Positions 1 through 22,430 of a DNA stretch of 33,277 nt are shown here, one piece after another. The stretch comes from a virus. The notes under the pieces are model-generated. The model did no database searches, was not told where the DNA came from, and was given only the letters and a program-made list of their open reading frames with translations. The stretch spans positions 1 through 33,277 of IMG/VR virus record IMGVR_UViG_3300009597_000165; one strand, given 5' to 3'. A program made the position numbers and the translations under genes. Numbering within the stretch: the first letter of the stretch is position 1; each line of letters begins with the position of its first letter.

Positions 1-2
1 AC

Positions 3-2841: not shown

Positions 2842-2864
2842 AACGCGCCGCGAGGAGTGCACAC

Positions 2865-3260: not shown

Positions 3261-3275
3261 TTAGCGCAGGGACTC

Positions 3276-3304
3276 GGCGCCTCCGCAATAGGGCGGTTGG
3301 CGCC
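3276..3304 (+). terminator. Strong hairpin between tail tube and chaperone genes
   Basis: GGCGCC (3276-3281) pairs with GGCGCC (3299-3304), and inside it CCGC (3283-3286) pairs with GCGG (3293-3296) around a short A-rich loop. It lies in the 70-base gap after the highly expressed tail tube gene. There is no U-run after the stem, so it may be a partial terminator, an attenuator or an mRNA-stabilising hairpin. Confidence 0.4.
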
Positions 3305-3330
3305 GGTCTCGCGGTTAGGGGAGAGCGATC

Positions 3331-3747: not shown

Positions 3748-4079
3748 ACGACGCGACGGACCCGAAGGCGCCCGGCGAGGCGCGCTGGCTGATGCTGGTA
3801 TCGCGCGTCTGCGAGGACTTCGGATGCCTGCCGTCGGTCGCCGTGCGCGAGCTGGAGGACGACCCGTCGCACATCGCGCTCGCCGTGCTCGACGTGCGCG
3901 AGTACGCGCGCTGCAAGGACGCCTACGAGACGCCAGCCGGGGAGAAGCGGGAGAAGGCGCTCGAGCGCTACTACAACGGCGTCGAGATGAGGCCGGTGCT
4001 GCAGGCGGTCGAGGCGAACGCGACGGCGCTGTTCGTGGAGCGCAACCCGAATATCAGACTGGGGCACAAGAAGGCATAG
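3714..4079 (+). CDS. Tail assembly chaperone, frameshift extension (gpGT-like C-terminal part)
   Basis: This is the -1 frame continuing the chaperone gene: about 120 residues beginning GILRGVHRLLDD and ending at the stop directly before the tape measure ATG. It has no good start codon with a ribosome binding site near its beginning; the first ATG (3792) lies well inside. The sequence (FGCLPSVAVRELEDDPSHIALAVLDVREYARC) is helical and resembles the T domain that in lambda recruits the tail tube protein to the tape measure complex. The full frameshift product would be about 249 residues. Independent translation is possible but fits the layout less well. Confidence 0.75.
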   Translation, partial: GGILRGVHRLLDDATDPKAPGEARWLMLVSRVCEDFGCLPSVAVRELEDDPSHIALAVLDVREYARCKDAYETPAGEKREKALERYYNGVEMRPVLQAVEANATALFVERNPNIRLGHKKA

Positions 4080-8537: not shown

Positions 8538-8540
8538 CAG

Positions 8541-10274: not shown

Positions 10275-10711
10275 CGGCAGCGAGGGGAGAGGTCGACGTC
10301 TTCGTACTCGACGCCGCGACCGGCGCGCTGCTGCGCCACCAGCGCGTCGCGAACCGCGTCGTTACGACCGGGCGGAACCAGATCAGAGACGCCGTCTACG
10401 ACGGCACGATCTCGCCGCCGATTCGGTTCGCGCTCGGGACCGGGAACACCGCCGTCGCGGACGGCGATACGTCGCTCGTCAACGAGATCTGGCGCGACGT
10501 GTTCGCGACGAAATCGAAGAGCACCGCCTCCGTCGAATACAAGTACTTCCTGACGTCAGTGACCGCGAACGGCTACACGCTCAGCGAGGCCGGGCTGTTC
10601 GATGCCGCGGTCTCAGGCACGATGCACGCGCGCGTCCTGCTCGACCCTATCGTCAAGACGTCAGGCATCGCCGTTCTGTTCGTCTGGACGCTTACATGGA
10701 GTGCCGCCTGA
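10271..10711 (+). CDS. Distal tail / tail fibre-associated protein
   Basis: 146 residues from GTG 10271 (GTGA overlap with the hub gene). The sequence has the pattern of proteins at the phage tail tip: LGTGNTAVADGDTSLVNEIWRD, then the YTLSEAGLFDAAVSGTMHARVLLDPI motif and a final hydrophobic strand VLFVWTLTW. The LSEAGLFD motif with a following M-AR is frequent in tail fibre and baseplate wedge-like proteins. It likely sits between hub and receptor-binding parts. Subfunction is not resolved. Confidence 0.65.
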   Translation: MTAARGEVDVFVLDAATGALLRHQRVANRVVTTGRNQIRDAVYDGTISPPIRFALGTGNTAVADGDTSLVNEIWRDVFATKSKSTASVEYKYFLTSVTANGYTLSEAGLFDAAVSGTMHARVLLDPIVKTSGIAVLFVWTLTWSAA

Positions 10712-11505
10712 TGGCTGGATGGGCAACCGGCGACAACCACACCGAGAAGCGCCGCAACCGCGAGTGGGGGCCGCTCCGCCTGCTGATGCCGGTGTTCGAC
10801 ATCGCGAACGGCGGCAGCGTCACGGCCTCGGCCGCGCCGGCAGACGGCAACTACGTCACGACCGGCGAGGCGACGCACTACACAGCAGGGTCAGGCATCT
10901 CCGTCTCGGTAATCAAGAACATCACGATTACCAACCACGAGGCCGGATCGAACACCGCCCGCGTGCACCTCGTGCCGAACGGCGGGTCACGCCAGGCCGC
11001 GAACGCCATCTACTTCGGGACGCTCTACCTGAAGGAGACGGTCAGCCTGTCGGGACCGTTCTTTATAGACCCGAGCGACACCGTTCGGTCGATCTCGTCC
11101 GACGCGAGCGGCACGGACCTCAGCCTGCGCATCGACTACGAGGAGTGGACCGGGCACCCGGCCGGCGTCACGTGCATCGTCGACGACGGCGACGCGCTGA
11201 CGACGTCGTTCGCGACCTACTACACGTGCCCGGCGTCGAATGTCCAGCACTCGAACGCGATCGTGCTCGCGTGCAACACGCACACGGCCGCCGTCGACGT
11301 GGAAATCGCGGTGATCCCGTCCGGGCAGGCGCAGGCGAACCGCTACAACATCTTCACCGGCAGCCTGCGGGCCGGCGACACGCTGTTCATGGGCGACGTG
11401 CTCGAACCGTTCATCCTCGAGCCAGGCGACTTCATTCAGGCGAAGGCGAGCACCGGCGCGGTCGTCGCGTTCCGTGTGACGCCGGTCGAATACGCGACTC
11501 CGTAG
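10711..11505 (+). CDS. Minor tail protein with two similar beta domains
   Basis: ATG 10711 overlaps the previous stop (TGATG); an in-frame ATG 15 bases earlier is less likely. The 264-residue product is beta-rich and seems to hold two related domains of about 85 residues. Each begins with a strand containing an N-T-A pair (EAGSNTARVHLVP; CNTHTAAVDVEIAVIP), then an A/N-rich turn, a Y-x-G or F-x-G strand, and ends in a GD or P-SD turn before a strand (FIDPSDTVRSISSD; ILEPGDFIQAKAS). Such duplicated jelly-roll-like domains are typical of minor structural proteins near the tail tip, possibly for host surface contact. No homologue function can be assigned. Confidence 0.65.
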   Translation: MAGWATGDNHTEKRRNREWGPLRLLMPVFDIANGGSVTASAAPADGNYVTTGEATHYTAGSGISVSVIKNITITNHEAGSNTARVHLVPNGGSRQAANAIYFGTLYLKETVSLSGPFFIDPSDTVRSISSDASGTDLSLRIDYEEWTGHPAGVTCIVDDGDALTTSFATYYTCPASNVQHSNAIVLACNTHTAAVDVEIAVIPSGQAQANRYNIFTGSLRAGDTLFMGDVLEPFILEPGDFIQAKASTGAVVAFRVTPVEYATP

Positions 11506-11524
11506 CTAGGGAGAAGGAGACAGT

Positions 11525-12133
11525 ATGGCGATCTCGCGCACAGGGCCGACGCCGGCCGACGTGGTCTTCTGGAACGGCGTCGCCGTCCCGGCCGGTCAGT
11601 ACGACGCCATGTTCACGCCAACGCTCGCCGACCTGATTAGCATGACCGGCGACCAGACATTCTGCTCGTTCACGGTGCCTGGCGGCACGTGGCGCGACGG
11701 GGAGGTCGTGATCGCCAGAATTATCGCCCTGCGGAAGAACAACACCGGCAGCCCGCAGGACACGACGATCCGCCTGTCGTTCACCGGCGCCGCGCTGACT
11801 ACGATCGGCGGGCCGAACACGTGGACGGACAGCGCGACCGAGTTCCGCAACTTCGGTCACGTCCCGATGTTCCGCGGCGGGAGCAGCGTCTACGTCCCGA
11901 CGACCGGATGGTCCGAGGGGACGGACCATCAGACCGGCTCACCGGACGACCTGATCACTAACACCCAGCGCTTCGACTCAGGGCAGGGGTTCATCGTCTT
12001 CACGCCGACGAACTTCACCAGCGACATCCTCGTGACGCTCGCGCTCAACGTGCCAGTGAATAGCGCGAACTGGTACTTCAAGCCGCGTCACGCCGCCTGC
12101 TACAAGACGATCCACTGGCCGTCGTTCGGATAA
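11525..12133 (+). CDS. Putative virion protein, beta-rich, unknown function
   Basis: 202 residues from ATG 11525, preceded by GGGAGAAGGAGA. Composition is Thr/Gly/Pro-rich with alternating strands (DTTIRLSFTGAALTTIGG; DILVTLALNVPVNSANWYF), few charged helices and few cysteines, as expected of a virion surface protein. It is the last gene of the tail operon before coiled-coil and cytoplasmic genes. A receptor-contact or decoration role is plausible; I do not recognise the family. Confidence 0.6.
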   Translation: MAISRTGPTPADVVFWNGVAVPAGQYDAMFTPTLADLISMTGDQTFCSFTVPGGTWRDGEVVIARIIALRKNNTGSPQDTTIRLSFTGAALTTIGGPNTWTDSATEFRNFGHVPMFRGGSSVYVPTTGWSEGTDHQTGSPDDLITNTQRFDSGQGFIVFTPTNFTSDILVTLALNVPVNSANWYFKPRHAACYKTIHWPSFG

Positions 12134-12159
12134 GCCGATTCTGATGGGGAGGTCCCGGC

Positions 12160-12651
12160 ATGAAGCGCGATGACGACGACGCAACGACATCGAGATTGCG
12201 CGCCACGATTCGCGAGGAGCTGGCCGCTATACACGGCCTGAAGAAGAACGGCGACACGGCGCTCGAATACATCAAGCGCATCGTGACGCCCGAGCGCGTG
12301 ATGCTGACGTTCCTGCTCGTCTACCAGCTTGGCGGCGAGGTGCGGAACGTCCGCTCGCAGCTCGACTCGCTCGCCGTGCGCGAGAAGGCGGTCACGCAGC
12401 AGCAGGCGCATCTGTCGCACCAGATGCAGTCGATGTCGACGCTGGTGCAGCAGCAGGGTGAGCTGCTCCTGTCGCAGAACGCGACCGTCGACGAACTGAT
12501 GGTGCAGACGGACACGCTACGCCGGACGACGAGCGTGCTCGACGACCGCATCAACAACACCGTGACGCGGTCCGAGTTCGCGGCCGCCGTGACGCAGCGC
12601 ATCCTGCCGCGCCTCGACCGCATCGAGCGGACGCTGGAGACGTCGAAGTAG
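12160..12651 (+). CDS. Coiled-coil protein with short hydrophobic segment
   Basis: 163 residues from ATG 12160 with GGGGAGG ahead of it. A charged N-terminus is followed by a short hydrophobic stretch (ERVMLTFLLVYQLGG, around residues 48-62) and then a long Gln/Leu/Ser coiled coil with heptad spacing (QQQAHLSHQMQSMSTLVQQQ). The layout resembles membrane-anchored coiled-coil proteins in phage lysis or tail regions, and position right after tail genes is a common site for lysis accessories. The hydrophobic run is short for a transmembrane helix, so membrane attachment is only a possibility. Confidence 0.6.
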   Translation: MKRDDDDATTSRLRATIREELAAIHGLKKNGDTALEYIKRIVTPERVMLTFLLVYQLGGEVRNVRSQLDSLAVREKAVTQQQAHLSHQMQSMSTLVQQQGELLLSQNATVDELMVQTDTLRRTTSVLDDRINNTVTRSEFAAAVTQRILPRLDRIERTLETSK

Positions 12652-12711
12652 GTGACGCGGCGACGGTGGGCGCGCCTGCCGAGGGGCAGGTGCTACAGAC
12701 GGAGGCGGTAG

Positions 12712-13032
12712 ATGGCAGCAGCAGACGCGCCGCGCCGGGACGACGCGCGCTACGCGCTCGTCCTGTGGCCTGACACGCCGAACCCGCTCTACAACGACGG
12801 CGACGAGGCGTCACCGTCGTGCATCGAGACGACCGCCGACGGGCAGGACTGCGTCGCGGTCGCGCTCGCGCGCGGCGCCGTCGTGGTCGCCGTCGAGCGC
12901 AGCGACTGGTGCACGCACACGCCGAGCCCGATCCCGTCGCAGCGCGCCGCGACGCGGACCATCCGCGCGCGCCGGCGGAAGAACTGGTGGCTCTACCGCG
13001 AGGAGCGCGCAAACGGCAAGGGCGAGACGTAG
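12712..13032 (+). CDS. Hypothetical protein, 106 residues
   Basis: ATG 12712 follows GGAGG at good spacing. The protein has a compact N-terminal half with two Cys (SCIETTADGQDCVAVALARG) and a strongly basic Trp-containing C-terminus (RARRRKNWWLYREER). A 19-codon Arg-rich frame starting at GTG 12652 ends directly before this ATG and may be a leader or chance. No family recognised. Confidence 0.6.
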   Translation: MAAADAPRRDDARYALVLWPDTPNPLYNDGDEASPSCIETTADGQDCVAVALARGAVVVAVERSDWCTHTPSPIPSQRAATRTIRARRRKNWWLYREERANGKGET

Positions 13033-13035
13033 GCC

Positions 13036-13209
13036 GTGCCGCAGCACGCGTGCCCGTCCTGCGGGCACCGAGGCGCCCACGAGCGGCTCGACTACGGGTG
13101 GGTCGTCTGCGGCCTGTGCTGGATCGCCTACCGGATCGGCGACACCGGGAAGGTCGTCGCGTGGGCGCCCACGAACAAGTCGCACCCGGCACTGAGGAGC
13201 AGACGATGA
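13036..13209 (+). CDS. Small zinc-ribbon protein, 57 residues
   Basis: From GTG 13036 the frame encodes CPSCGH, then CGLC 16 residues later: a treble-clef or ribbon zinc site. It sits 3 bases after the previous stop and overlaps the next ATG (ATGA). The ribosome binding site is weak, so expression may depend on coupling. Function unknown; likely a small nucleic-acid or protein-binding ribbon. Confidence 0.6.
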   Translation: MPQHACPSCGHRGAHERLDYGWVVCGLCWIAYRIGDTGKVVAWAPTNKSHPALRSRR

Positions 13210-13466
13210 ACGTCACGCGCCGCGCCCTGCTCGCTACGCTGATCGGCGTAACCGTTACGCCGAAGGGCGTAACGGCCGACGGCGGCGTCCACGTGGTCGG
13301 GCATCTCGGCGGCGCCGACGCCGAGGGCGGCTATTTCGAGCTGGTCAACGCCGAGGACGTCGGCGCGAAGGACCTGATTCTCGCGACTCCGATCCGCAGC
13401 CCGCTCTACCCGAACCTGAAGGCGCTCGTCGGGAAGAAGGTGCAGGTCAGCGTCTTCGAGCCGTGA
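13206..13466 (+). CDS. Putative exported protein with twin-Arg signal-like N-terminus
   Basis: 86 residues from ATG 13206, preceded by GAGGAG. The start MNVTRRALLATLIGVTVT has an RR pair and a hydrophobic stretch, like a short Tat or Sec signal, with a possible cleavage near VTADG. The remainder is a small beta domain (VHVVGHLGG...YFELVNAEDV...KKVQVSVFEP). If exported it would act in the cell envelope or outside; no catalytic motif is seen. The signal call is moderate because the hydrophobic core is short. Confidence 0.6.
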   Translation: MNVTRRALLATLIGVTVTPKGVTADGGVHVVGHLGGADAEGGYFELVNAEDVGAKDLILATPIRSPLYPNLKALVGKKVQVSVFEP

Positions 13467-13825
13467 AGGTCGCGCGAGCGTGCGTCCATTGCGGGCGCGT
13501 CACGAGCCGGCGACATCGACTTACCTGCCAGCCATGCAGGTATGCGCGTGCGGTCCGGGCGCGCGCGCAGCGATGGACGGACGGCGTCAGGAAGGCGTGT
13601 CGGGAGTGCGGGAAGCCTGTGCCGAGATACATCTGGGTCGGCCAGGGGCTGTCGTTCTGCCGTAAATGCCGCAAGGCGCGGCCCGGCATGGCGCGGTACT
13701 ACGCGAGCGCAAAAAACCGCGCGCGCGATAAGCGGTACCGCGACAAGCCGCTAACGCGGGAGCATCATAGATGGCGAAGTCGGAGCTACAGGCGCCGGCT
13801 AAGAATCTCTGCTTCGAGGATCTGA
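13463..13825 (+). CDS. Double zinc-ribbon, basic protein
   Basis: 120 residues from GTG 13463 (GTGA overlap). It has CVHC...CQPC and CREC...CRKC, two zinc-binding pairs, and a very basic C-terminus rich in Arg, Tyr and His. This fits a DNA- or RNA-binding protein; an eroded HNH-type protein is an alternative, but no complete HNH triad can be seen. Its last 55 bases overlap the next gene in another frame, a large overlap, so one of the two ends may be misjudged. The overlap holds a CCGC-TAAC-GCGG hairpin (13748-13759). Confidence 0.6.
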   Translation: MKVARACVHCGRVTSRRHRLTCQPCRYARAVRARAQRWTDGVRKACRECGKPVPRYIWVGQGLSFCRKCRKARPGMARYYASAKNRARDKRYRDKPLTREHHRWRSRSYRRRLRISASRI

Positions 13826-14667
13826 TCCAGTCGACGACGTCCTATATGGACAAGCTCGCGGCGTCGATGCCGCGCAACGAGCACCGCATGACGAGCGGGA
13901 TGCTCTACGGCGAGCAGGCGAAGTACGTCGCCTGGGATTTGCCGGCGAAGAAGTTCGACCACGTCGAGCTGCTGCAGGTGACGGACGTTCAGTTCGGCCA
14001 CGTGCACTGCAAGTACGACCGCGTCATCGAGTACCGCGACTGGATCCTGAAGGAGCCGAACCGGTTCATGCTCTGGACCGGCGACAACGTCGACGCCTGG
14101 GCTATGTGGTCGCCCGGCCGCGCGTTCGACCAGATCGCGGACCCGCAAAGCCAGGTGTTCAAGTTCTGCGAGGTCTGGGCGCCGGCACGGCACCGCATCC
14201 TCGGCTACGTCGGCGGCAACCACGAGCGGCGCGCGATCCCCGGCTTCGGCGACCTCGGTATCCTGATCGCGACGCTGCTGAAGGTGCCCTACTCGAACGG
14301 GCGGCAGTTCGTCGACATCCGGTTCGGGAAGCACCAGCCATTCAAGGTCGCGCTCTGGCACGGCGTCGGCGCGTCGCGGTCGAAGGGGGCGGTTACGAAC
14401 GTGCTGCACCGGTTCATGGGCCAGGGCGACGCGCAGCTCTACCTGATGGGCCACCTGCACCAGGCCGTGCTGCTGCCGGACTGGAAGGAGATCCGCGACA
14501 CTGACCGGCAGCGCGTCAAGCTGCAGAAGACCATCGGCGCGATCGGCACGAGCTTCCTCGAGACGTGGGGCACCTACGGCGAGGTCGCCGGCTACGCCGG
14601 GTCTGACGTGATGATGGCGCGCGCGGTCCTCGAGGCCGACGGGAAGTGGGAACTCACCCTGCGGTGA
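13771..14667 (+). CDS. Calcineurin-like metallophosphoesterase
   Basis: 298 residues. All motifs of the metallophosphoesterase fold are present in order: D72 in TDVQFGH, GDN at 104-106, GNHE at 149-152, H197 in WHG, and GHLH at 227-230. These ligands hold two metal ions that cleave phosphoesters, on nucleic acids, nucleotides or phosphoproteins. Phages encode such enzymes as nucleases (SbcD/Mre11-like, usually with a partner ATPase) or stand-alone phosphatases; no SbcC partner is nearby, so a stand-alone role seems likelier. The ATG at 13771 follows GGGAG but overlaps the previous gene; a later start (ATG 13846) would still keep every motif. Confidence 0.9.
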   Translation: MAKSELQAPAKNLCFEDLIQSTTSYMDKLAASMPRNEHRMTSGMLYGEQAKYVAWDLPAKKFDHVELLQVTDVQFGHVHCKYDRVIEYRDWILKEPNRFMLWTGDNVDAWAMWSPGRAFDQIADPQSQVFKFCEVWAPARHRILGYVGGNHERRAIPGFGDLGILIATLLKVPYSNGRQFVDIRFGKHQPFKVALWHGVGASRSKGAVTNVLHRFMGQGDAQLYLMGHLHQAVLLPDWKEIRDTDRQRVKLQKTIGAIGTSFLETWGTYGEVAGYAGSDVMMARAVLEADGKWELTLR

Positions 14668-14768
14668 GGCGCTGCTGGCTCTGCTTCGGCATCGGCGTCT
14701 ACGCGTCGAAGTGGCGGGCGGTGACGATCGGGCCGTGCTGGTGGTGCCGGCCGTGGAGGATCTGGTGA
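14664..14768 (+). CDS. Tiny zinc-ribbon peptide, 34 residues, Trp-rich
   Basis: GTG 14664 overlaps the phosphoesterase stop. The frame has CWLC and CWWC, 21 residues apart, and ends at 14768 where the next GTG overlaps. Two CxxC knuckles in a peptide this short support a real zinc-binding protein. Function unknown. Confidence 0.5.
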   Translation: MRRCWLCFGIGVYASKWRAVTIGPCWWCRPWRIW

Positions 14769-14845
14769 ACCGTTGCGAGGCCTGCGGCCGGGACATGGGC
14801 GGCGAGGAGCGCGTCTGCATTTACTGCGGGCACTGGCACGAGTGA
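14765..14845 (+). CDS. Tiny zinc-ribbon peptide, 26 residues
   Basis: GTG 14765 overlaps the previous stop and the stop overlaps the next GTG. The peptide has CEAC and CIYC with 10 residues between, followed by GHWH. It is second in a run of three coupled genes. Too short for a family call, but the cysteine spacing and tight coupling argue against chance. Confidence 0.5.
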   Translation: MNRCEACGRDMGGEERVCIYCGHWHE

Positions 14846-15303
14846 GTCAGGTCACGGCGCCTCCGGACGTCCTGCGCTGGTCGTCACGATCCGGCGACCA
14901 CGGCGACTGCGTCGTCGCCGCGCTGGAACTGGCCTGCGGCGTCAGCTATGAGACGGCGCTCGCGGCGTCGGTGCGCGTCTGCCCGAACATTCTGAGCGAG
15001 GGCATGTGGCTGACCGAGGTACCGAAGGCCGCGAAGCTGCTCGGCTACCGCGTGCGGAAGCAGCGCGCCGGGACGTTTGATCTCGACGAGTCGACCGGCA
15101 TTCTGCACGTCTACCAGTCGCACCGGCCAATACGCGAGACGAGCCACGTCGTCTATCTCTGGGGCGGACGCGTCGTCGAGCCGAAGGCCGATCGGCGCCA
15201 GCTGTGGCTCGACGCCGGGCAGTTCCTGAAGCACTACGGCTACCGCGCCGGTGCGCTGCTGACGCTTCACGGCAAGGACGACAAGGAGGACTGGTACGCA
15301 TGA
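14842..15303 (+). CDS. C39-like papain-fold cysteine peptidase domain protein
   Basis: 153 residues from GTG 14842. C23 in GDHGDCVVAALELA begins a helix, as the catalytic Cys does in C39-type and other papain-like peptidases. H102 in ETSHVVYLWGG followed by VVEPK fits the catalytic His strand and the following acidic-Pro turn, and VPKAAKLLGYRV matches the helix between them. There is no signal peptide and no ABC-transporter part, so it should act in the cytoplasm. C39 domains cut leader peptides after double Gly; stand-alone phage versions are of unknown role. A loss-of-activity variant or a different papain-like family remains possible. Confidence 0.55.
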   Translation: MSQVTAPPDVLRWSSRSGDHGDCVVAALELACGVSYETALAASVRVCPNILSEGMWLTEVPKAAKLLGYRVRKQRAGTFDLDESTGILHVYQSHRPIRETSHVVYLWGGRVVEPKADRRQLWLDAGQFLKHYGYRAGALLTLHGKDDKEDWYA

Positions 15304-15830
15304 GCACGCTCGTAATCGGGTTCACCGGCAAGGCGCGGCACGGCAAGGATCTCGCGTGCGAGCTGATCGCCAGCATTGCGCCAGGCGCGAGGCGCTACGC
15401 GTTCTCGGACGGCGTCGCCGCCTACGCGCGGGCGCTCGGCCTCATGACGGCGCGCGATCCGGTCATTCTGCAGCGCGTCGGCACCGAGATCCGCGGGCGA
15501 AACCTGACGGCCTGGATCGACGTCGTGCGCGGCGCGATCGCCGACCACGCTGCGCCGGTCGCGCTCGTCAGCGGCGTCCGCTACGCGAACGAGGCCGAGA
15601 TGGTCCGGTCGATGGGCGGCTACATTATTCGCGTCGTGCGGACCGAGGCCGACGGCTCGCCGTTCCTGTGCGGCGACCGCGACCCGCACCACGGCAGCGA
15701 GACGGCAATGGACGGCATCGCGCCGGACTACACCGTCGACAACGTCAGCGGCCAGCTCGGCGCGTTCCGCGACGCCGTGCTGCGCACCTACCGCGACATC
15801 GTCAACCGCCACAACGAGGACGGGGCATGA
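15300..15830 (+). CDS. Deoxynucleoside monophosphate kinase-like P-loop protein
   Basis: 176 residues from ATG 15300 (overlap with previous stop). A P-loop GFTGKARHGKD is at residues 7-17. Further on, QRVGTEIRG...AWIDVV and VALVSGVRYANEAEMVRSMGG match the layout of T4 gp1-type dNMP kinases and related phage P-loop kinases (substrate lid, then the DVR/VRY strand). It likely phosphorylates dNMPs for phage DNA synthesis, using ATP. Neighbouring DUF4406-like and small proteins fit a nucleotide metabolism block. The substrate cannot be told from sequence. Confidence 0.75.
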   Translation: MSTLVIGFTGKARHGKDLACELIASIAPGARRYAFSDGVAAYARALGLMTARDPVILQRVGTEIRGRNLTAWIDVVRGAIADHAAPVALVSGVRYANEAEMVRSMGGYIIRVVRTEADGSPFLCGDRDPHHGSETAMDGIAPDYTVDNVSGQLGAFRDAVLRTYRDIVNRHNEDGA

Positions 15831-16183
15831 ACATAAAGACGGCGCCGAACGTTCCAGAGACCGAGTTCAGCGAGAAGTTCGCGCAAGGCATGGCCGACCG
15901 CATGACCGTGAGCTTCTGCAAATACGGCGCGGTCGCGGACGCGTATCCGCATCGCGTCGACGCGATCGCTAGCCTCAAGAAGCGGCTCGAGAAATACGAG
16001 CGCGACGGGAATACCGAGTGGCTCATGGATGTCGCGAACTTCGCGATGATCGAGTTCATGCGCCCGCGCCACCCGGACGCGCACTACAAGCCGACAGACA
16101 GCAAGGCGTCTCCTGGCAGGCAGTGGGTCGGCGAGGTCAACGCTAGCCAGCGCGGCAACAGGCCCGAAACCTGGACCGACTGA
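15827..16183 (+). CDS. Conserved phage hypothetical protein
   Basis: 118 residues from ATG 15827 (ATGA overlap). The part FCKYGAVADAYPHRVDAIASLKKRLEKY...EWLMDVANFAMIEFM looks like a helical protein I associate with phage genomes near nucleotide metabolism genes. The helical, acidic N-terminal half resembles all-alpha pyrophosphohydrolase-type helices but the E-x3-E...E-x2-D metal motif is not clear. Function unknown. Confidence 0.7.
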   Translation: MNIKTAPNVPETEFSEKFAQGMADRMTVSFCKYGAVADAYPHRVDAIASLKKRLEKYERDGNTEWLMDVANFAMIEFMRPRHPDAHYKPTDSKASPGRQWVGEVNASQRGNRPETWTD

Positions 16184-16184
16184 C

Positions 16185-16403
16185 GTGAGCATCTTCGGCT
16201 GGATCGGCAACGCGTTCATCGTCGGCGGCTTGTGGGGCATCGGCAACAAGTGGCGGCGCGCGTTCCTGCTGAGCGTCGTCGGCGAGTCGTGCTGGCTCGT
16301 CGCGTCGTGGCAGCGCGCGCAATGGGACCTGTTCGTCATCTGCATCGTGTTCGCGGCGCTCGCCGCGCGGAGCTACGCCAAGTGGGGCCAGGAGGCAGCG
16401 TGA
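16185..16403 (+). CDS. Small membrane protein with three hydrophobic segments
   Basis: 72 residues from GTG 16185. Segments IFGWIGNAFIVGGLWGIGN, AFLLSVVGESCWLVAS and LFVICIVFAALAARSY should each cross or enter the membrane. The W-G-N and GES-W pattern is known from small phage inner-membrane proteins that look like half of a PnuC-type transporter. It could be a transporter fragment, a superinfection factor or a holin; the absence of a charged C-terminal tail argues mildly against a holin. Confidence 0.7.
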   Translation: MSIFGWIGNAFIVGGLWGIGNKWRRAFLLSVVGESCWLVASWQRAQWDLFVICIVFAALAARSYAKWGQEAA

Positions 16404-16825
16404 GAGACATGAAGGTCGTCTACGTCGCTGGACCGTTCAGGGCGAAGTCGCAATACATGGAAGGCCAGCAGGACTGCTGGGAGATCCAGAAGAACGTCAT
16501 GGCGGCGATGGCGCTCGCGCTCGAGGTCTGGCGGCTCGGCGCCGCGGCGGTCTGCCCGCACGCGAACACGATGTTCTTCCAGAACGCGGCGAAGGACGAG
16601 GTCTGGCTCGACGGCGACCTCGCGATCCTCGCGAAGTGCGACGCGCTGATGATGACGCCGGACTGGCGGCGCTCGTCGGGTGCGCGCGCCGAGCACGACT
16701 TCGCCGAGGCGCGCGGCATGCGGATCTTCTACGACCTGCCGACGCTTGAGCAGTGGCTGCACCAGCCGGACTACAGCCGGCCGCAGGTCGTCGACGCGCA
16801 GGGCAACATGATCACCGGCCCGTGA
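16400..16825 (+). CDS. DUF4406 / nucleoside 2-deoxyribosyltransferase-like protein
   Basis: 141 residues from GTG 16400 with GGAGG just upstream (an ATG at 16409 would be too far from it). KVVYVAGPF at the start, NVMAAMALALEVWRLGAAAVCPHANT, then WLDGDLAILAKCDALMMTPDWRRSSGARAEHDFAEARG give the complete pattern of the DUF4406/NDT-like fold: a Gly-rich nucleotide loop, the D-L-x-I-L-x-x-C-D-A strand and the S-x-G-A-x-x-E catalytic-type motif. Members split or exchange nucleoside bases or bind nucleotides. It probably handles phage or host nucleotides. Confidence 0.85.
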   Translation: MRDMKVVYVAGPFRAKSQYMEGQQDCWEIQKNVMAAMALALEVWRLGAAAVCPHANTMFFQNAAKDEVWLDGDLAILAKCDALMMTPDWRRSSGARAEHDFAEARGMRIFYDLPTLEQWLHQPDYSRPQVVDAQGNMITGP

Positions 16826-16826
16826 C

Positions 16827-17237
16827 GTGAGCCGTGCGCGCATCGCGGCCGCACTCTGCGCTGCTGCGATGCTCTCGGCGGCCATGACCGCCGCCGAGGA
16901 GCCGCGGCGCGTCTACTTCCTGCCCTCGCGCGTCCAGTTCGTCCCGGACAGCGAGTTCGTCACCTACTACGTCAAGGTGCCGCTCGACGGCCGCAACCGG
17001 ACGCTCACCGTCGCCGCGCTCGACGGCGAGTTCCCGGTGCGGTCGAGCGAGCAGGACCTGTCGGCCGAGCGCCGCCGCACGATCTGGGACTACCGGTGGC
17101 GCCTGCCGCCCGGCGAGCTGGTTCTCGTCGCCGTCGTCCGCGAGGCCGGCGGCCGCATCGCCGGGCGGGACGAGCGGCGTGTGACGGTCTATCACACGTT
17201 GTCTTCCATTACGCAAAACAGCGTAACGGTTAATTGA
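16827..17237 (+). CDS. Exported protein with signal peptide, beta-rich
   Basis: 136 residues from GTG 16827. The N-terminus MSRARIAAALCAAAMLSAAMTAAEE is a clear Sec signal with cleavage near MTA-AEE. The mature part is a single beta domain (RVYFLPSRVQFVPDSEFVTYYVKVPLD...WDYRWRLPPGELVLVAVV) with Ig-like strand spacing. It should sit in the periplasm or outside the cell. It ends the downstream operon before the non-coding control region. A role in host surface alteration or superinfection exclusion is possible but unproven. Confidence 0.7.
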   Translation: MSRARIAAALCAAAMLSAAMTAAEEPRRVYFLPSRVQFVPDSEFVTYYVKVPLDGRNRTLTVAALDGEFPVRSSEQDLSAERRRTIWDYRWRLPPGELVLVAVVREAGGRIAGRDERRVTVYHTLSSITQNSVTVN

Positions 17238-17271
17238 AAACATTAGGAAAATCGCGTCAGGCGTGGCCTAT

Positions 17272-17302
17272 TTGACCTGCCGGTCTGAATTAATAGTATA
17301 AT
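17272..17302 (+). promoter_or_regulatory. Sigma70-type promoter
   Basis: TTGACC (17272-17277) and a perfect TATAAT (17297-17302) are separated by 19 bases, one to two longer than ideal. The stretch is AT-rich within a GC-rich genome, as expected of a promoter. Transcription would begin near 17310, giving a leader of about 600 bases before the first well supported gene at 17911. This is the best promoter match I see in the window. Confidence 0.65.
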
Positions 17303-17326
17303 TCCCTTGTAAGTAGGAAGTCAGTT

Positions 17327-17344
17327 GCGACCCTCGATGGTCGC
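17327..17344 (+). repeat. Four-copy hairpin family, copy 1
   Basis: GCGACC pairs with GGTCGC around loop CTCGAT; preceded by GTCAGTT and followed by CTTGAAAA. It lies about 20 bases downstream of the predicted transcription start, so it would form near the 5' end of the leader. Unlike the other copies it is not directly ahead of a clear ribosome binding site. Confidence 0.65.
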
Positions 17345-17692
17345 CTTGAAAACTGAATGACGCGACAGGCCGCGACAGCCAAAAGCGGCGGCCGACAGCG
17401 AAGGCAAACGAGGCGAAGCGGCCGAACCCGTAGCGCAAGACACGCGAGTGCGGTAGGCAGCAGCCAGTCGACAGCCGGACGATACGGCGCAGCGGGGTCC
17501 TCCCGCAGCGAAGACACCGAGCCGACAGAGAACGCGAGTAAGTGGCGCGACGTTGCGAAGGCATCGAAACGAGATGCCGCCTGAACGTCACGCGCCCTTC
17601 GACGTCACGTCAATGGCAGAACCGCTAACGCGGGAATGGTGACGAAGTGGCAGGGCACGTCAAACCCTGAAGCAATCGAAAATTTGAAACCG

Positions 17693-17719
17693 AAACCCGA
17701 GCGCGCGAGCGCCGGGTTT
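17693..17719 (+). other. RNA hairpin with GNRA-type loop
   Basis: AAACCCG (17693-17699) pairs with CGGGTTT (17713-17719); GCGC (17701-17704) pairs with GCGC (17709-17712) around GCGA, a GNRA tetraloop; A17700 is a single bulge. No U-run follows, so a simple terminator is unlikely. It fits a structured leader or small RNA. Confidence 0.5.
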
Positions 17720-17726
17720 GGCGTTC

Positions 17727-17777
17727 TTGAAACCGTAGGCGTTAAATACCGGCGAGCCTGGTGACGAGGGATAACAA
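17727..17777 (+). repeat. Leader repeat, copy A
   Basis: Begins TTGAAACCGTAGGC and ends TGACGAGGGATAACAA. Copy B starts 88 bases further on with the same first 12 bases and the same last 10, and both carry CCGGCG in the middle. The interior differs, as in a decayed duplication or two binding elements of one type. Confidence 0.6.
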
Positions 17778-17814
17778 CGGATCCGTGGCGGGCAACCGCG
17801 AGAATCGGTCGCCG

Positions 17815-17860
17815 TTGAAACCGTAGCCTATGCACTCCCGGCGCTGACTAGGGATAACAA
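17815..17860 (+). repeat. Leader repeat, copy B
   Basis: Begins TTGAAACCGTAGCC, has CCCGGCG in the middle and ends TGACTAGGGATAACAA, matching copy A at both ends while being 5 bases shorter. It lies about 50 bases ahead of the ATG at 17911. Confidence 0.6.
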
Positions 17861-17910
17861 GAACGTCAAACCGGACGCTCGCACGAGCGACCCTTGAAAA
17901 GGAGACAGCT

Positions 17911-18108
17911 ATGTTTAACGAACTGACACTCGACCAACTGACAGAACGCGCGCGGCTGAACGCGCTGCGCGGCATCGCGACCTCGAAGGAACTGCGCGAC
18001 GAGATCAAAGCGCGCCAGTGCCCGAACTGCGGCGGCGAGAAAGCTAGCCGGATCGCGAAATACTGCGGCGACTGCGCGCGCAGCATTAACTGCGACGATC
18101 GGTGGTAG
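17911..18108 (+). CDS. Small zinc-ribbon protein, 65 residues
   Basis: ATG 17911 follows AAAAGGAGA at ideal spacing, a strong start. A helical N-terminus (LTLDQLTERARLNALRG) leads to CPNCGG and, 15 residues later, CGDC: a complete zinc ribbon. It is the first solid gene after the predicted promoter, so probably expressed early or strongly. Zinc-ribbon proteins in this position often bind host RNA polymerase or DNA, but no partner can be read from the sequence. Confidence 0.75.
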   Translation: MFNELTLDQLTERARLNALRGIATSKELRDEIKARQCPNCGGEKASRIAKYCGDCARSINCDDRW

Positions 18109-18127
18109 CAAACAATTAACCGTCAAT

Positions 18128-18144
18128 GCGGCGCTCGTCGCCGC
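18128..18144 (+). repeat. Four-copy hairpin family, copy 2, ahead of a ribosome binding site
   Basis: GCGGCG pairs with CGCCGC around CTCGT, preceded by GTCAAT and followed by CTTAGGAG. The AGGAG ribosome binding site for the ATG at 18159 starts 4 bases after the stem. Confidence 0.7.
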
Positions 18145-18158
18145 CTTAGGAGATGGCA

Positions 18159-18779
18159 ATGACCAAGACCCAACTCCGCGCGACCTGCCCGGCCTGCTTC
18201 GCGGTGCAGGCGCTCCGCTCAGGCTGCCTCGTCGAGCACGGCTACCGTCGTCCGCAGGACTGGCACCAGAACGTCGGCACCTGTAACGGAACCGGCCAGC
18301 CGCACTTTGGCACGAAGGCCGGCCGCGACTACACAGCCTTTATCGCCGGTCGCCTTCGCGTTCAGGCGGACAACGTCGAGCAGGAAGCGGTCGCCGTCGT
18401 GACCGAAAACGCGCCGGTTCTCGCGACGAAGCGCGTCGCCTTCGGCGTCAACAGTGAAGTCGTGGTCGATAACCCGACCGCGCGCGATCGCGAGCAATAT
18501 GCCGCGCGGCTTCGACAGCGCGCCGGCAACATGCGGAAGCAGGCCGTCGAATACGACGCGCTCGCGGCCGGATGGGTGCCGACAGAGCCGGTAGCCGTGA
18601 CGGTCGAGACGAAGACCGCGCTGCTACACTGGCGGACGCAGCAGCGATGGCACGGCGGCAAGGCCTGCGCAGGTTCGGCGATGGCGGCGCACAAGGGCGC
18701 GATGACGAGCGAGACCGAGAACGTCACGTGCCCGAAGTGCCGCGCGCTAATTGCGACACTACGCACAAGGAGTGCGTAA
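18159..18779 (+). CDS. Zinc-binding phage protein, 206 residues
   Basis: ATG 18159 is chosen over ATG 18153 because AGGAG (18148-18152) is well spaced only for the former. CPAC and a later Cys (SGCLVEHGYRRP), then WHQNVGTCNGTG, form a cysteine/histidine-rich module; the HGY-RP...C-G-G sequence is recurrent in phage hypothetical proteins. A helical middle rich in Ala, Arg and Gln (ARLRQRAGNMRKQ) is followed by a C-terminal CPKC. A second zinc site probably pairs with the C-terminal cysteines. Likely nucleic-acid binding; function unknown. Confidence 0.75.
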   Translation: MTKTQLRATCPACFAVQALRSGCLVEHGYRRPQDWHQNVGTCNGTGQPHFGTKAGRDYTAFIAGRLRVQADNVEQEAVAVVTENAPVLATKRVAFGVNSEVVVDNPTARDREQYAARLRQRAGNMRKQAVEYDALAAGWVPTEPVAVTVETKTALLHWRTQQRWHGGKACAGSAMAAHKGAMTSETENVTCPKCRALIATLRTRSA

Positions 18780-18782
18780 ATC

Positions 18783-18848
18783 ATGGCCAAGAAGAAAAAG
18801 CCGAAGGGCGTGACGTTTGTGCTCCGGCCGACGTGCGGGCGACCGTAG
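18783..18848 (+). CDS. Tiny basic peptide, 21 residues
   Basis: ATG 18783 follows AAGGAG at 10 bases, the site lying in the end of the previous gene. The peptide starts MAKKKKPKG and ends CGRP. A good ribosome binding site supports translation, but a frame this short could be chance or a leader peptide for the structured stretch that follows. Confidence 0.4.
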   Translation: MAKKKKPKGVTFVLRPTCGRP

Positions 18849-18871
18849 CAGGCGGAGACGATAAACCCAGT

Positions 18872-18891
18872 GCTCGGTCACAACTCCGAGC
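18872..18891 (+). other. Hairpin in structured leader
   Basis: GCTCGG (18872-18877) pairs with CCGAGC (18886-18891) around an 8-base loop. It lies shortly after the end of the tiny basic peptide. Confidence 0.5.
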
Positions 18892-18943
18892 GAGCCGGTA
18901 GGCGGCGGCCATGTATGCGAACAGGTCATCGAAAGGGTGACGG

Positions 18944-18968
18944 CGGCCGGGACGTCAGCGTCCCGCCG
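18944..18968 (+). terminator. Strong hairpin, possible terminator or attenuator
   Basis: CGGGACG (18948-18954) pairs with CGTCCCG (18959-18965) around TCAG; CGG (18944-18946) and CCG (18966-18968) extend the stem past one bulged C. TAAACC follows instead of a U-run. The same seven-base stem recurs at 27418-27441. Confidence 0.45.
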
Positions 18969-19009
18969 TAAACCCCGAGCCCCGGTCCGAACGCCGGGCA
19001 ACGGTCATT

Positions 19010-19026
19010 GCGGTCCTCGTGGCCGC
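19010..19026 (+). repeat. Four-copy hairpin family, copy 3, ahead of a ribosome binding site
   Basis: GCGGTC pairs with GGCCGC (one G-U pair) around CTCGT, preceded by GTCATT and followed by CTAGGAG. AGGAG (19029-19033) serves the ATG at 19040. Confidence 0.7.
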
Positions 19027-19039
19027 CTAGGAGACGCAC

Positions 19040-19249
19040 ATGAACAGACACCTCGGCTTCTACCGCAACGTCGCCCGCCTCGAGGAGGCCATGATTCGCG
19101 CAGCAATGCCGCGCACGTTCGCGGTCGACATCGACCCGCTGCCAGGCTTCGCGGCGCCGACGCGCAGCGAGGTCCTCGCCAGCCGTCCCGGCTCGCGGCT
19201 CGTCCGTCCCCTGACATTCACGATCGCGGAGGTGGCCCGTGGCAACTAA
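19040..19249 (+). CDS. Hypothetical small protein, 69 residues
   Basis: ATG 19040 with AGGAG 6 bases upstream. The product is mixed helix and Pro-rich loop (LGFYRNVARLEEAMIRAAMPR; DIDPLPGFAAP) with no cysteine pair, membrane segment or known motif. It opens a coupled set of three genes; the next gene starts inside its 3' end. Confidence 0.65.
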   Translation: MNRHLGFYRNVARLEEAMIRAAMPRTFAVDIDPLPGFAAPTRSEVLASRPGSRLVRPLTFTIAEVARGN

Positions 19250-19400
19250 GACCAACAAGCCTGACGCGTGGATGCGGCTCGTGCTGCAGTCCATGAGCAA
19301 CGCAGAACTCGTAACGGAGATTAACAGCGGCAACGAGACCGGGCAGCGCCTGCAGTGGCTGCACGACGAGCTGGCGAAGCGAAAGAAAGGCGCGCGATGA
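19239..19400 (+). CDS. Hypothetical small protein, 53 residues
   Basis: GTG 19239 lies 7 bases after GGAGG and overlaps the previous gene by 11 bases. The frame ends at 19400, overlapping the next ATG. The product is helical and charged (MRLVLQSMSNAELVTEINSG; WLHDELAKRKKG), like a small DNA- or protein-binding helix pair. Family unknown. Confidence 0.6.
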   Translation: MATKTNKPDAWMRLVLQSMSNAELVTEINSGNETGQRLQWLHDELAKRKKGAR

Positions 19401-19705
19401 CCCGCAGTTTCTTTGACGAGTTCGTTAAGGACGTCGAATCGGCGATAGGCGCGTCGCCGGCCGACTTCGCCTTCCTGTGCGACGCGATGCAGCGCCTGCA
19501 CGCGAACCACTGCTTCGAGGCGTTCGGCTACTACGAGGCCGGCATGACCGCGCGCGAGTGCGCGGACGCGTTGATCGCGACGGCGTGCCCGGACTGCGGC
19601 GCGCCGCTCTACGTCGACGACTCGGTCCTGAAGTTCGACCGGGGCATGCAGTCGCGGGTTCGCGCAGCCCTTTGTTCTGGCTGCGAGTTCGTCCACGAGT
19701 TTTAA
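19397..19705 (+). CDS. Zinc-ribbon protein, 102 residues
   Basis: ATG 19397 overlaps the previous stop (ATGA). An acidic helical N-terminus (FDEFVKDVESAIGASPADFAF) leads to CPDCGAPL and, about 26 residues later, CSGCEF: a zinc ribbon with long loop. It ends the coupled trio before an intergenic hairpin. No enzyme motif. Confidence 0.7.
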   Translation: MTRSFFDEFVKDVESAIGASPADFAFLCDAMQRLHANHCFEAFGYYEAGMTARECADALIATACPDCGAPLYVDDSVLKFDRGMQSRVRAALCSGCEFVHEF

Positions 19706-19718
19706 CCGTTAATCCATT

Positions 19719-19736
19719 GCGGCCCTCCGTGGCCGC
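19719..19736 (+). repeat. Four-copy hairpin family, copy 4, ahead of a ribosome binding site
   Basis: GCGGCC pairs with GGCCGC around CTCCGT, preceded by TCCATT and followed by CTAGAAAGGA. AAAGGA (19741-19746) serves the ATG at 19752. Confidence 0.7.
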
Positions 19737-19751
19737 CTAGAAAGGATTCCA

Positions 19752-19919
19752 ATGAAAAACAACAAGAGGGCGCCGAAGCCGACCTTCTCCGGGTTCCGTA
19801 TCGCCGACCGCCTGCTCGCGTCCGGGCAGCGGCTGCGCGCCGACGAGACGCCGACGCGCCGGACGATCGCGCTCGGCTACGCGGCCAAGTGGGCGCAGGC
19901 GACGGGAGGTGCACGATGA
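19752..19919 (+). CDS. Hypothetical small basic protein, 55 residues
   Basis: ATG 19752 follows AAAGGA. The product is basic (MKNNKRAPKP start) with a helical middle (FRIADRLLASGQRLRA) and ends WAQATGGAR. The stop overlaps the next ATG. No family recognised; a small DNA-binding protein is possible. Confidence 0.55.
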   Translation: MKNNKRAPKPTFSGFRIADRLLASGQRLRADETPTRRTIALGYAAKWAQATGGAR

Positions 19920-20038
19920 CCGAGTGGCAGTGGAGACGGGTGCACGAGTCGGCCGTCACGCTGATCGACGAGCTGTGCGAGACGGAGCCCGGCCGCGCGG
20001 CGGTCGACGACTACAGGTCTGGCGGCCGCGACGTGTGA
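19916..20038 (+). CDS. Hypothetical small protein, 40 residues
   Basis: ATG 19916 overlaps the previous stop, with GGGAGG upstream. The peptide has a Trp-rich start (MTEWQWRRVHE) and an acidic helix (VTLIDELCETEPG). No motif. Coupling supports translation. Confidence 0.5.
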   Translation: MTEWQWRRVHESAVTLIDELCETEPGRAAVDDYRSGGRDV

Positions 20039-20042
20039 ACGA

Positions 20043-20067
20043 GCCCGTATAAAAGGAAAGAACGGGC
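20043..20067 (+). other. Intergenic hairpin with A-rich loop
   Basis: GCCCGT (20043-20048) pairs with ACGGGC (20062-20067) around a purine-rich 13-base loop containing TATAAAAGGAAAG. It fills the gap before the gene at 20083 and could protect the message or expose the loop for regulation. A TATAAA box in the loop has no matching -35 element. Confidence 0.4.
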
Positions 20068-20082
20068 CAAAAGGGGGCAAGC

Positions 20083-20298
20083 ATGGTGCATGAGGCCGGC
20101 GGCGTAGATGGTGACGAGAAGCAGCGATGCCGCCGGTGCGGTACGGTCCTGAAGGACCTACGGATCAGACGCTCGAATGAGCTAGACAATCGGCCGCCAC
20201 GGCAGAATGGCGGCGAGGCATACCCGGAGGGCGCGATGGTGGAAGTGCACGAGACGTGGCAGGCGATGAGCCTGTTCGGGAGGGCAACATGCCGCTGA
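20083..20298 (+). CDS. Small protein with one CxxC pair, 71 residues
   Basis: ATG 20083 follows AAGGGGG. CRRC near residue 16 forms one half of a possible ribbon; the second half is missing, so it may dimerise or be an incomplete ribbon. The rest is polar (RRSNELDNRPPRQNGGEA) with a helical C-terminus. Function unknown. Confidence 0.55.
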   Translation: MVHEAGGVDGDEKQRCRRCGTVLKDLRIRRSNELDNRPPRQNGGEAYPEGAMVEVHETWQAMSLFGRATCR

Positions 20299-20308
20299 GT
20301 GGAGAGCC

Positions 20309-20602
20309 GTGCTGACGTCGGCGTGGGTCAGCCGCGGGCGCGCGCTCGCGGCCTACAGCATCAAGGAGGACGGCACGGCGCGGTTCGTCGGCGAGTTCTC
20401 GATGCTGCCGGCGGACATCCCTGAGGGCCGGTGCGTCGCGGTCGGCGAGATCCTCGGGCTCGAGGTCAACGGCCGGGTGTTCCCGGTCGTCCTCGACACC
20501 TGCGATCACTGCCACGCGCCGGTCGAGGGCGGTGTGCGCGGCGCAGGCGGCGAGCGGTTCTGCAACGATGACTGCCGCGAGGAGTGGCGATTGAACCACT
20601 GA
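20309..20602 (+). CDS. TRASH-like zinc-finger protein, 97 residues
   Basis: GTG 20309, after GGAGA. The N-terminal 60 residues are a small beta domain. The C-terminus CDHCHAPVEGG...RFCNDDCREEW matches the TRASH/FCS-type treble-clef zinc finger (C-x2-C...F-C-x3-C). Such fingers bind metals or mediate protein contact. The gene sits just before the AAA+ module and may belong to the same transcript. Confidence 0.65.
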   Translation: MLTSAWVSRGRALAAYSIKEDGTARFVGEFSMLPADIPEGRCVAVGEILGLEVNGRVFPVVLDTCDHCHAPVEGGVRGAGGERFCNDDCREEWRLNH

Positions 20603-20622
20603 GTAATTGGGGGGACTGAGAC

Positions 20623-20847
20623 ATGGCGGAGGACACAGCACGGGACGCGCTGATCAAGCGCCTGCGTGACGCGGCAATGATCGTCGACGAGGTCATGGAG
20701 GCGCTCGACGTCAGCGAGCAGGCGTGCGACAACTGCGGCGGGCGGCACTTCCTGAACCGCAAGCAGGCGAAGGCGTTCGAGAACATAGAGTCGATCCCGA
20801 CGAAGCTGCGCCGGACGGCGACGAGCCTCGAGGGGAACAACCGGTGA
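20623..20847 (+). CDS. Small helical protein with CxxC, 74 residues
   Basis: ATG 20623 with a G-rich ribosome binding site. The N-terminal half is an acidic/basic helix (RDALIKRLRDAAMIVDEVMEALD), then CDNCGG and a Lys/Ala helix. It has one CxxC only. Its stop overlaps a GTG (20844) that could give the AAA+ protein a 16-residue longer start. Confidence 0.6.
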   Translation: MAEDTARDALIKRLRDAAMIVDEVMEALDVSEQACDNCGGRHFLNRKQAKAFENIESIPTKLRRTATSLEGNNR

Positions 20848-20891
20848 GCACTATTACGCTGGCCTCGTTGCCAGCCTCGAGGGAGACGCAC

Positions 20892-22430
20892 ATGAGCATG
20901 ATCAATCTGTTTGAGGCCGCCCGACGCGTGTCGGTGCCGATCGTTGCGATCCGCACGGCCGACCAGGCGGCGACCATCGATGCTATCGCCGCGACGCAAT
21001 CGACGGAGGCGTGCAACTTCCCGGTCGTCCAGTGGGACGCGGCGCGCGGCCTGTCCGGCGTTAACCAGAAGGGCGTGAAGGCGCTCGCCGAAGCGGCGAA
21101 GGGCGACATCAAGGGCGAGGACACGATCGGGTTCGTCGAGGCGATGCTGGCCTGCCAGCTCCTTCCGAAGGGCACGGTCGTCTGCGCGCACAACGCGCAC
21201 CGGCAGATCCTGTCGACCGAGCCGATGGCGTCGGCCTCGGCGGTGCAGGCGGTCGCGAACCTGCGGGCGACGTTCAAGACGACGTTCCGGATGCTCGTCC
21301 TGCTCGGGCCGATCTTCCAGGCGCCGCCGGAGCTGGAGCACGACGTCGTGGTGCTCGACCACGCGCTGCCGACGCCAGCGGAACTCGAGACGATGGGCAA
21401 GGAACTCTACCAGGCCAGCAAGCTGAAGGCGCCGAAGGCGGACGTGCTGGCGAAGGGCGTCGACGCGGTCAGCGGTCTCTCGCTGTTCGCGGCCGAGCAG
21501 GCGTGGGCGATGTCGATGACGCCGGACGGCGTCGACCTCGCGCAGCTGTGGGAGCGGAAGCGCGTGACGATCGGGCAGACGCAGGGCCTGAGCGTCTGGC
21601 GCGGCGGCGAGCGGTTCGACGACCTCGTCGGCCTCGACGCGATCAAGGCGAAGCTGCGGCGGCGCCTCGAGTCGAGGACGCCGATCGGTGTCGTCCTGTT
21701 CCTCGACGAGATCGACAAGGTGTTCGCGAACCTCGAGCACGACACGACCGGGGTCAAGATGGATCAGTTCCGCACCTTCCTCACGGAGATGGAGAACAAC
21801 GAGTGGCGCGGGATGGTCTGCCTCGGCGTGCCCGGCGCGGGCAAGTCGGCGATCGCGAAGTCGTTCGGCAACGAGGCCGGCGTGCCGACAATCGCGCTCG
21901 ACCTCGGCGCGATGGAGTCGCAGTTCGTCGGCGCGAGCGAGGCGCTCCTGCGGCACGCGATGCAGGTCGTCAAGGCGATCGGCCGCGACCACGCCTACGT
22001 CATCGCGACGTCGAACAACGCGAGCGTGATGCGTCCGGAGCTGCAGCGCCGGTTCACGGACGGTAACTGGTTCTTCGACCTCATGAGCGACCGTGAGCGC
22101 GCGGCGGCGCTGGCGGCCTACGCGAAGAAGTACGAGCTGACGAAGGCGCAGGTGGACATTGGCGTCTCGGGCATGCCGGGCTGGACCGGCGCCGAGATCC
22201 GGAACGCCTGCCGGGACGCGTGGGACTCGGGCTGCACGCTGAAGGAGGCGTCGCAGTTCATCGTGCCGATCGCGCGGTCGCGCGCCGACGACGTGGACGC
22301 GCTGCGGCGCTACGCGCACGGCCGTCTGCTCGACTCCACGCGCGGCGGCACCTACGAGTTCGACCGGAACGACCCGGTGCTCGAGACGGCGCTGCGCGCG
22401 ATCAACCTCGAAGGCATGGCGGTGAACTGA
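20892..22430 (+). CDS. Ycf46-like AAA+ ATPase with permuted motif order
   Basis: 512 residues from ATG 20892, after GGGAG (GTG 20844 is an alternative). The N-terminal part (NFPVVQWDAARGLSG, then LPKGTVVCAHNAHRQI, VLDHALPTPAEL) follows the Ycf46 pattern of an inactive AAA-like domain. The second part is the ATPase: VLFLDEIDK, a Walker B-type motif, at about 269-276; GVPGAGKS, Walker A, at 312-319; a sensor-1-like ATSNN at 372-376; and arginine-finger-type RPELQRRF at 381-388. In ordinary AAA+ proteins Walker B follows Walker A; here it precedes it and the usual site is empty. The protein is likely an ATP-driven remodelling factor. DUF1257- and DUF2997-like genes follow, a recurrent grouping. 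Confidence 0.85.
   Translation: MSMINLFEAARRVSVPIVAIRTADQAATIDAIAATQSTEACNFPVVQWDAARGLSGVNQKGVKALAEAAKGDIKGEDTIGFVEAMLACQLLPKGTVVCAHNAHRQILSTEPMASASAVQAVANLRATFKTTFRMLVLLGPIFQAPPELEHDVVVLDHALPTPAELETMGKELYQASKLKAPKADVLAKGVDAVSGLSLFAAEQAWAMSMTPDGVDLAQLWERKRVTIGQTQGLSVWRGGERFDDLVGLDAIKAKLRRRLESRTPIGVVLFLDEIDKVFANLEHDTTGVKMDQFRTFLTEMENNEWRGMVCLGVPGAGKSAIAKSFGNEAGVPTIALDLGAMESQFVGASEALLRHAMQVVKAIGRDHAYVIATSNNASVMRPELQRRFTDGNWFFDLMSDRERAAALAAYAKKYELTKAQVDIGVSGMPGWTGAEIRNACRDAWDSGCTLKEASQFIVPIARSRADDVDALRRYAHGRLLDSTRGGTYEFDRNDPVLETALRAINLEGMAVN

Follow-up and report, generated by a model that had tools for sequence, protein, structure and literature searches.

Why does one small hairpin, with its stem letters exchanged each time, recur in front of the small genes of a single phage block? 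The question is raised by the window analysed here, the whole of IMG/VR record IMGVR_UViG_3300009597_000165 (33,277 bases, 68% G+C), which belongs to a tailed phage with a tape measure protein at 4080-8537. A first-pass annotation, made from the letters of the window, had described four copies of a six-pair stem, three of them ahead of ribosome binding sites, and had read them as RNA structures under selection, serving translation control by a phage or host protein. All four are present, with the stems it gave, between genes and on the plus strand; a fifth copy, identified in this work, lies downstream, and the five fall within 3.6 kb (Table 1). Our results support selection on the RNA structure of the hairpin, as judged from its sequence, and we lean slightly towards a phage-specific, start-associated RNA hairpin that would act in cis, either read through its loop or working as an insulator.

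The copies are alike in what surrounds and closes the stem. The loop is invariant at its ends in all five, with CTC on the 5' side and T in the last position (CTC(G/C)..T, 5-6 nt), and so is the CCT flank 3' of the stem; the stem of copy 1 can be extended by its flanks, CAGTT/AACTG. The ATG lies 13-15 nt downstream of copies 2-4 with the Shine-Dalgarno sequence in between, and 16 nt downstream of copy 5. The ribosome sites of these start-adjacent copies read TTAGGAGATGG, TAGGAGACG, TAGAAAGGATT and GAGGGAGACG. No copies scattered inside genes were seen. Successive genes from 17911 to 20892 are separated by 50, 3, 191, -11, -4, 46, -4, 44, 10, 20 and 44 nt, and the hairpin is present in four of the five gaps of at least 40 nt and at none of the overlapping genes. 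Because it is found in the wide gaps and is absent at overlaps, it appears to mark the starts of translation units beyond the reach of coupling. The remaining wide gap (20039-20082) carries an inverted repeat of another kind, GCCCGT-ATAAAAGGAAAGA-ACGGGC, whose purine-rich loop resembles a ribosome site; it precedes the gene at 20083.

The likeness of the copies is not significant on its own, at least four equally similar clustered hairpins having been obtained in 12 of 60 shuffled windows. We also scored the 50 nt upstream of each gene start (79 regions, 1000 shuffles). Hairpins with a CTC loop occur in four of these regions, and no shuffle yielded three or more; a loop class of any kind reached at least four in 6 of the 1000 shuffles. 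The CTC-loop hairpins ahead of starts are not a product of chance.

Further copies before start codons, and covarying pairs, had been named in the first-pass annotation as the support to look for, and both were found. A covariance model of the original four copies (R1) was run unfiltered on the window and on the additional sequence of a second contig, IMGVR_UViG_3300012039_000012 (47,977 bases). This contig, the sole one matched in a search with the metallophosphoesterase, is identical to the window across positions 1-16501 and ends there, an identity by which it is the same phage and no independent relative; it adds about 31.5 kb upstream, with the portal and major head genes, the hairpin region not being included. 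In the 81 kb searched, the top match of R1 outside its training set was 20848-20894, weak by score (13.0 bits, E 0.43). Its stem, GCTGGC/GCCAGC, is nevertheless perfect, its loop reads CTCGTT, CCT follows, and an ATG preceded by a ribosome binding site stands at the usual distance. With this copy added, the model (R2) scores the five copies at 37-42 bits, against 16 bits for the next match, and finds no sixth in about 65 kb of phage; the phage as known carries five copies. A match at L071 776-813, which resembles a short hairpin copy, was rejected as zinc-ribbon coding sequence (it reads CKQCGYRLEKGA). Covariation was modest with four copies, two of the six pairs covarying and 39 of 500 shuffles reaching as high. 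It is clear with five: all 30 stem cells are paired, four of the six pairs are changed on both sides, and this was equalled in 2 of 500 shuffles, while none of the slid registers reached it. Because the loop is fixed while the stem varies and yet always pairs, a structure read as RNA is favoured.

Table 1. Coordinates of the hairpin copies and of neighbouring features in the window.
Feature	Position	Strand	Details
Hairpin copy 1	17327-17344	+	GCGACC-ctcgat-GGTCGC; no Shine-Dalgarno adjoining
Hairpin copy 2	18128-18144	+	GCGGCG-ctcgt-CGCCGC; Shine-Dalgarno AGGAG, ATG 18159
Hairpin copy 3	19010-19026	+	GCGGTC-ctcgt-GGCCGC, one G-U pair; Shine-Dalgarno AGGAG, ATG 19040
Hairpin copy 4	19719-19736	+	GCGGCC-ctccgt-GGCCGC; Shine-Dalgarno AAAGGA, ATG 19752
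Hairpin copy 5	20858-20875	+	GCTGGC-ctcgtt-GCCAGC; Shine-Dalgarno GAGGGAG, ATG 20892; missed in the first-pass annotation
Sigma-70-like promoter	17272-17302	+	TTGACC ... TAGTATAAT; sole forward one in 16500-21000
Non-coding stretch, about 540 nt	17345-17900	+	between copy 1 and gene 17911; probably structured leader or inserted RNA
Type-P5 twister ribozyme, probable	18935-18997	+	Rfam match at 18936-18997, 32.6 bits (E value 2.9e-4 over 3.2 kb)
Small zinc-ribbon-like protein gene	17911-18108	+	65 aa; first of block; matches below curated cut-offs
Gene B	18159-18779	+	206 aa; PHROG 17208 (function unknown), E 4.4e-12
AAA-type ATPase gene	20892-22430	+	512 aa; behind copy 5; 33% to the Tunturi_3 ATPase over 96%

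How might such a hairpin act? One cis-acting module could have spread by duplication within the single block of small genes, coming to lie immediately 5' of the Shine-Dalgarno sequence in the gaps between translation units, and would thereby partition one operon. The hairpin would form in the mRNA as the transcript emerges and act at translation initiation, a step over which we infer that it exerts control. Most likely, a phage or host RNA-binding factor would read the constant loop on its variable stem, and the several small zinc-ribbon-like proteins encoded by the same block, at 17911, 19397, 20083, 20309 and 20623, are candidate autoregulators; more simply, the hairpin may keep GC-rich upstream RNA off the start site.

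Several results weigh against this reading. In partition-function folding, the accessibility of the Shine-Dalgarno sequence did not change when the hairpin letters were barred from pairing. Of the first-pass interpretation, selection on RNA structure is borne out by the fixed loop and 3' flank, the varying and always paired stem, the single strand, the position beside starts and the fifth copy, whereas translation control by a bound protein finds no support in folding. In contexts of 80-140 nt, alternative folds beat copies 2, 3 and 5, a preference that upstream translation and co-transcriptional folding could alter. The set numbers five copies only, its covariation counts are small, and copy 5 was detected with a model that already contains the stem. 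Finally, searches of IMG/VR, GTDB genomes and phage records, with degenerate patterns that need near-exact outer stems and flanks, gave no homologous locus or element. The IMG/VR scans for the hairpin with its flanks returned 0, 22 and 43 stretches, all attributable to chance on inspection; the single GTDB match, with four of six pairs, was rejected likewise. Protein searches with a 208-aa protein, the ATPase and a ParB-like protein gave no relatives, and blastn against phage records gave no match. Between 17200 and 20400 the hairpins match no Rfam 15 family at E up to 5, the twister being the only match. We also considered a bistable switch, an idea prompted by how copy 3 folds: the 5' flank would pair with the start codon, and the CTC in the loop with GAG in the ribosome site. 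It was rejected, as the flanks are no more complementary to their own starts than to other starts.

The hairpins could instead be boundary repeats at which small genes are shuffled by recombination, as cassettes, with no further regulatory effect. Every copy indeed lies where two genes meet, inside a single block of small orphan genes, and the twister and the non-coding stretch occupy such boundaries too. There is also a precedent in the promoter early stem-loops (PeSLs; Arbiol 2010, Comeau 2014) of T4-like phages. As far as they are described in PMC4503421 and PMC5931544, these combine an early promoter with a stem-loop, a promoter-terminator motif by title, and the former reports that they mediate gene shuffling among T4-like phages. 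On that description, the resemblance is in repeated stem-loops at boundaries within regions of small, variable genes; the difference is that here the scan for sigma-70-like sites gives a promoter-like site ahead of copy 1 only and that no copy has a terminator tail. Across 16500-21000, no site resembling an intrinsic terminator was detected at any copy, and the sequences that follow the copies (CTTAGG, CTAGG, CTAGAA, CTCGAG) hold no U-run. Homologous recombination, moreover, needs conserved sequence, yet the stem letters diverge with pairing kept. Together with the confinement of the promoter to copy 1, this leaves the shuffling of cassettes an unlikely account.

A role in RNA processing or stability, in which the hairpin would be a target of a ribonuclease or would shield a 5' end, and alongside the twister would determine how stable each segment of the polycistronic mRNA is, has its best arguments in copies 1 and 3. 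The twister is probably genuine, to judge from its predicted fold, and would be self-cleaving. Its score is under the gathering cut-off (32.6 versus 37.6 bits), in a model that ignores pseudoknots. P1, P2 (GGGT/ACCC) and P4 are present, with a predicted cleavage step at U18969|A18970, the fold and the U-A site agreeing with those in PMC6154101. A T1 pseudoknot, CGG/CCG, would join 18941-18943 to 18987-18989, and a T2 pseudoknot, CG/CG, would join 18976-18977 to 18992-18993; the letters of T1 and T2 are both changed on both sides relative to the family consensus. The strands of T1 and T2 within 18935-18997 are those we take to be the right ones. Copy 3 begins 12 nt past the twister match, and the predicted cleavage would put it about 40 nt from a new 5' end. 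Copy 1, for its part, starts some 20-25 nt downstream of the predicted -10 box, close to the predicted transcript start; sigma-70-like sites number two in 16500-21000, one per strand, versus 0.2 expected. Copies 2, 4 and 5, on the other hand, have no ribozyme ahead of them, and no promoter was found ahead of copies 2-5 in that sigma-70-like scan, other promoter types lying outside it. A stem of 6 bp is also short for RNase III. We thus hold processing, too, to be improbable.

Copy 1 is also the one that stands apart from a gene start, the non-coding stretch intervening. The open reading frames of this stretch have third-position G+C contents of 0.57-0.73, versus 0.75-0.95 in real genes, and it is moderately structured (fold z = -2.1), with the internal repeats TTGAAACCGTAG and AGGGATAACAA. 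It is bracketed by a direct repeat of nine bases, CCTTGAAAA, at the end of copy 1 (17344-17352) and where gene 17911 has its ribosome binding site (17892-17900); these are its only two plus-strand occurrences in about 65 kb, and a shared stretch of this kind has a P of about 0.02 in shuffles. Since joining the flanks at CCTTGAAAA restores the layout of the other copies, namely the hairpin, CCTTGAAAAGGAG and an ATG, it is tempting to suggest, though the arrangement is suggestive only, that copy 1 once lay just ahead of gene 17911, the stretch of about 540 nt being a later insertion. No Rfam or tRNA match was found in 17345-17900, nor any relative in IMG/VR when it was searched with the two internal repeats. 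It is possibly a large unclassified phage RNA. One might even speculate that the whole region is under coordinated control, the long structured leader, the self-cleaving twister and the five start hairpins, read by protein or by RNA, splitting the operon into translation units each under its own control, and small zinc-ribbon proteins encoded in that operon doing the reading; we regard this as quite unlikely.

Palindromic DNA operators for a phage repressor or activator would also place inverted repeats near gene starts. Such operators do occur in phages, and the Extended Start-Associated Sequences (ESAS) of cluster K mycobacteriophages, which enlarge on shorter Start-Associated Sequences (SAS), have been so interpreted (PMC3203893). 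SAS and ESAS stand in several copies per genome before the starts of non-structural genes, with function unproven (PMC3203893; PMC12699233); ESAS are inverted repeats of 17 bp with a variable spacer, whose departures, the authors state, do not support RNA pairing (PMC3203893). Our set shares with them the single orientation, a distance of a few bases from start codons, a preference for intergenic gaps from roughly 50 bp upwards, and an inverted repeat that immediately precedes a stretch containing AGGAG. It differs in that the 13-bp SAS, GGGATAGGAGCCC, is absent at the ribosome sites here, and in having covarying 6-bp stems and a fixed loop of 5-6 nt instead of 17-bp repeats with a variable spacer. 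A DNA operator is disfavoured because operators have fixed half-sites and a free spacer, the opposite of what is seen here, where the half-sites vary symmetrically and the asymmetric spacer (CTC...T) is fixed; with a single orientation and no sigma-70-like promoter at copies 2-5 as well, we consider it very unlikely. Least probable of all are decaying, functionless duplicates that have kept their pairing by chance or recency, which the modest four-copy covariation and the shuffles matching the similarity alone would allow, and against which stand the fifth copy, with four of six pairs co-changed and zero unpaired cells, and the enrichment ahead of starts.

The hairpin set resembles both ESAS and PeSLs yet lacks a defining feature of each. 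Two further comparisons bear on the reading of a start-associated RNA hairpin. The nearest ATPase is that of Tunturiibacter phage Tunturi_3 (PP885686), in which we observed an independent start-associated set: three long hairpins, placed at L001 5540, 6334 and 8720 within the stretches 5530-5610, 6325-6391 and 8710-8776. Their stem letters are exchanged above a constant GAGT/ACTC-like base, CTGCTATT(A/T)GCAG comes next, and every one of them is closely followed by an AAGGAG ribosome site and the ATG of a gene. The two phages share, besides the ATPase, hairpins with exchanged stems before ribosome sites; the sequence and loop are unrelated, however, and the covariance model of the window matches nothing there. 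Phage translational operators, the MS2 coat-protein hairpin among them, overlap a single gene's start site and bind a known protein. The likeness is that a short hairpin whose loop is fixed stands next to a ribosome site, whereas the hairpin of the window lies upstream of the start, exists in several copies and has only a putative reader. Start-associated hairpins are known in outline; what is new is a set that combines RNA covariation with an unvarying loop. The function of SAS and ESAS has been unproven since 2011, and the pairing evidence there argued against an RNA hairpin. For the present set it is RNA pairing, with the loop kept constant, that the evidence favours, and the set is of a size that suits direct reporter and binding assays. 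With a probable ribozyme and a non-coding stretch nearby, the block offers a compact setting for RNA-level control in an uncultivated phage.

Elsewhere in the same phage, a few minor observations were made. Between gene B and the ribozyme, 18783-18848 may encode a basic protein of 21 residues (MAKKKKPKGVTFVLRPTCGRP). At 379-2841 of the window, read by eye from the translation and with no PHROG match, are a protein with a CxxxxCxxC-like motif resembling radical SAM enzymes and a glycosyltransferase-like protein, which adjoins the tail genes. Upstream of the window, the second contig carries an array of about 29 tRNA genes (L070 8032-15008).

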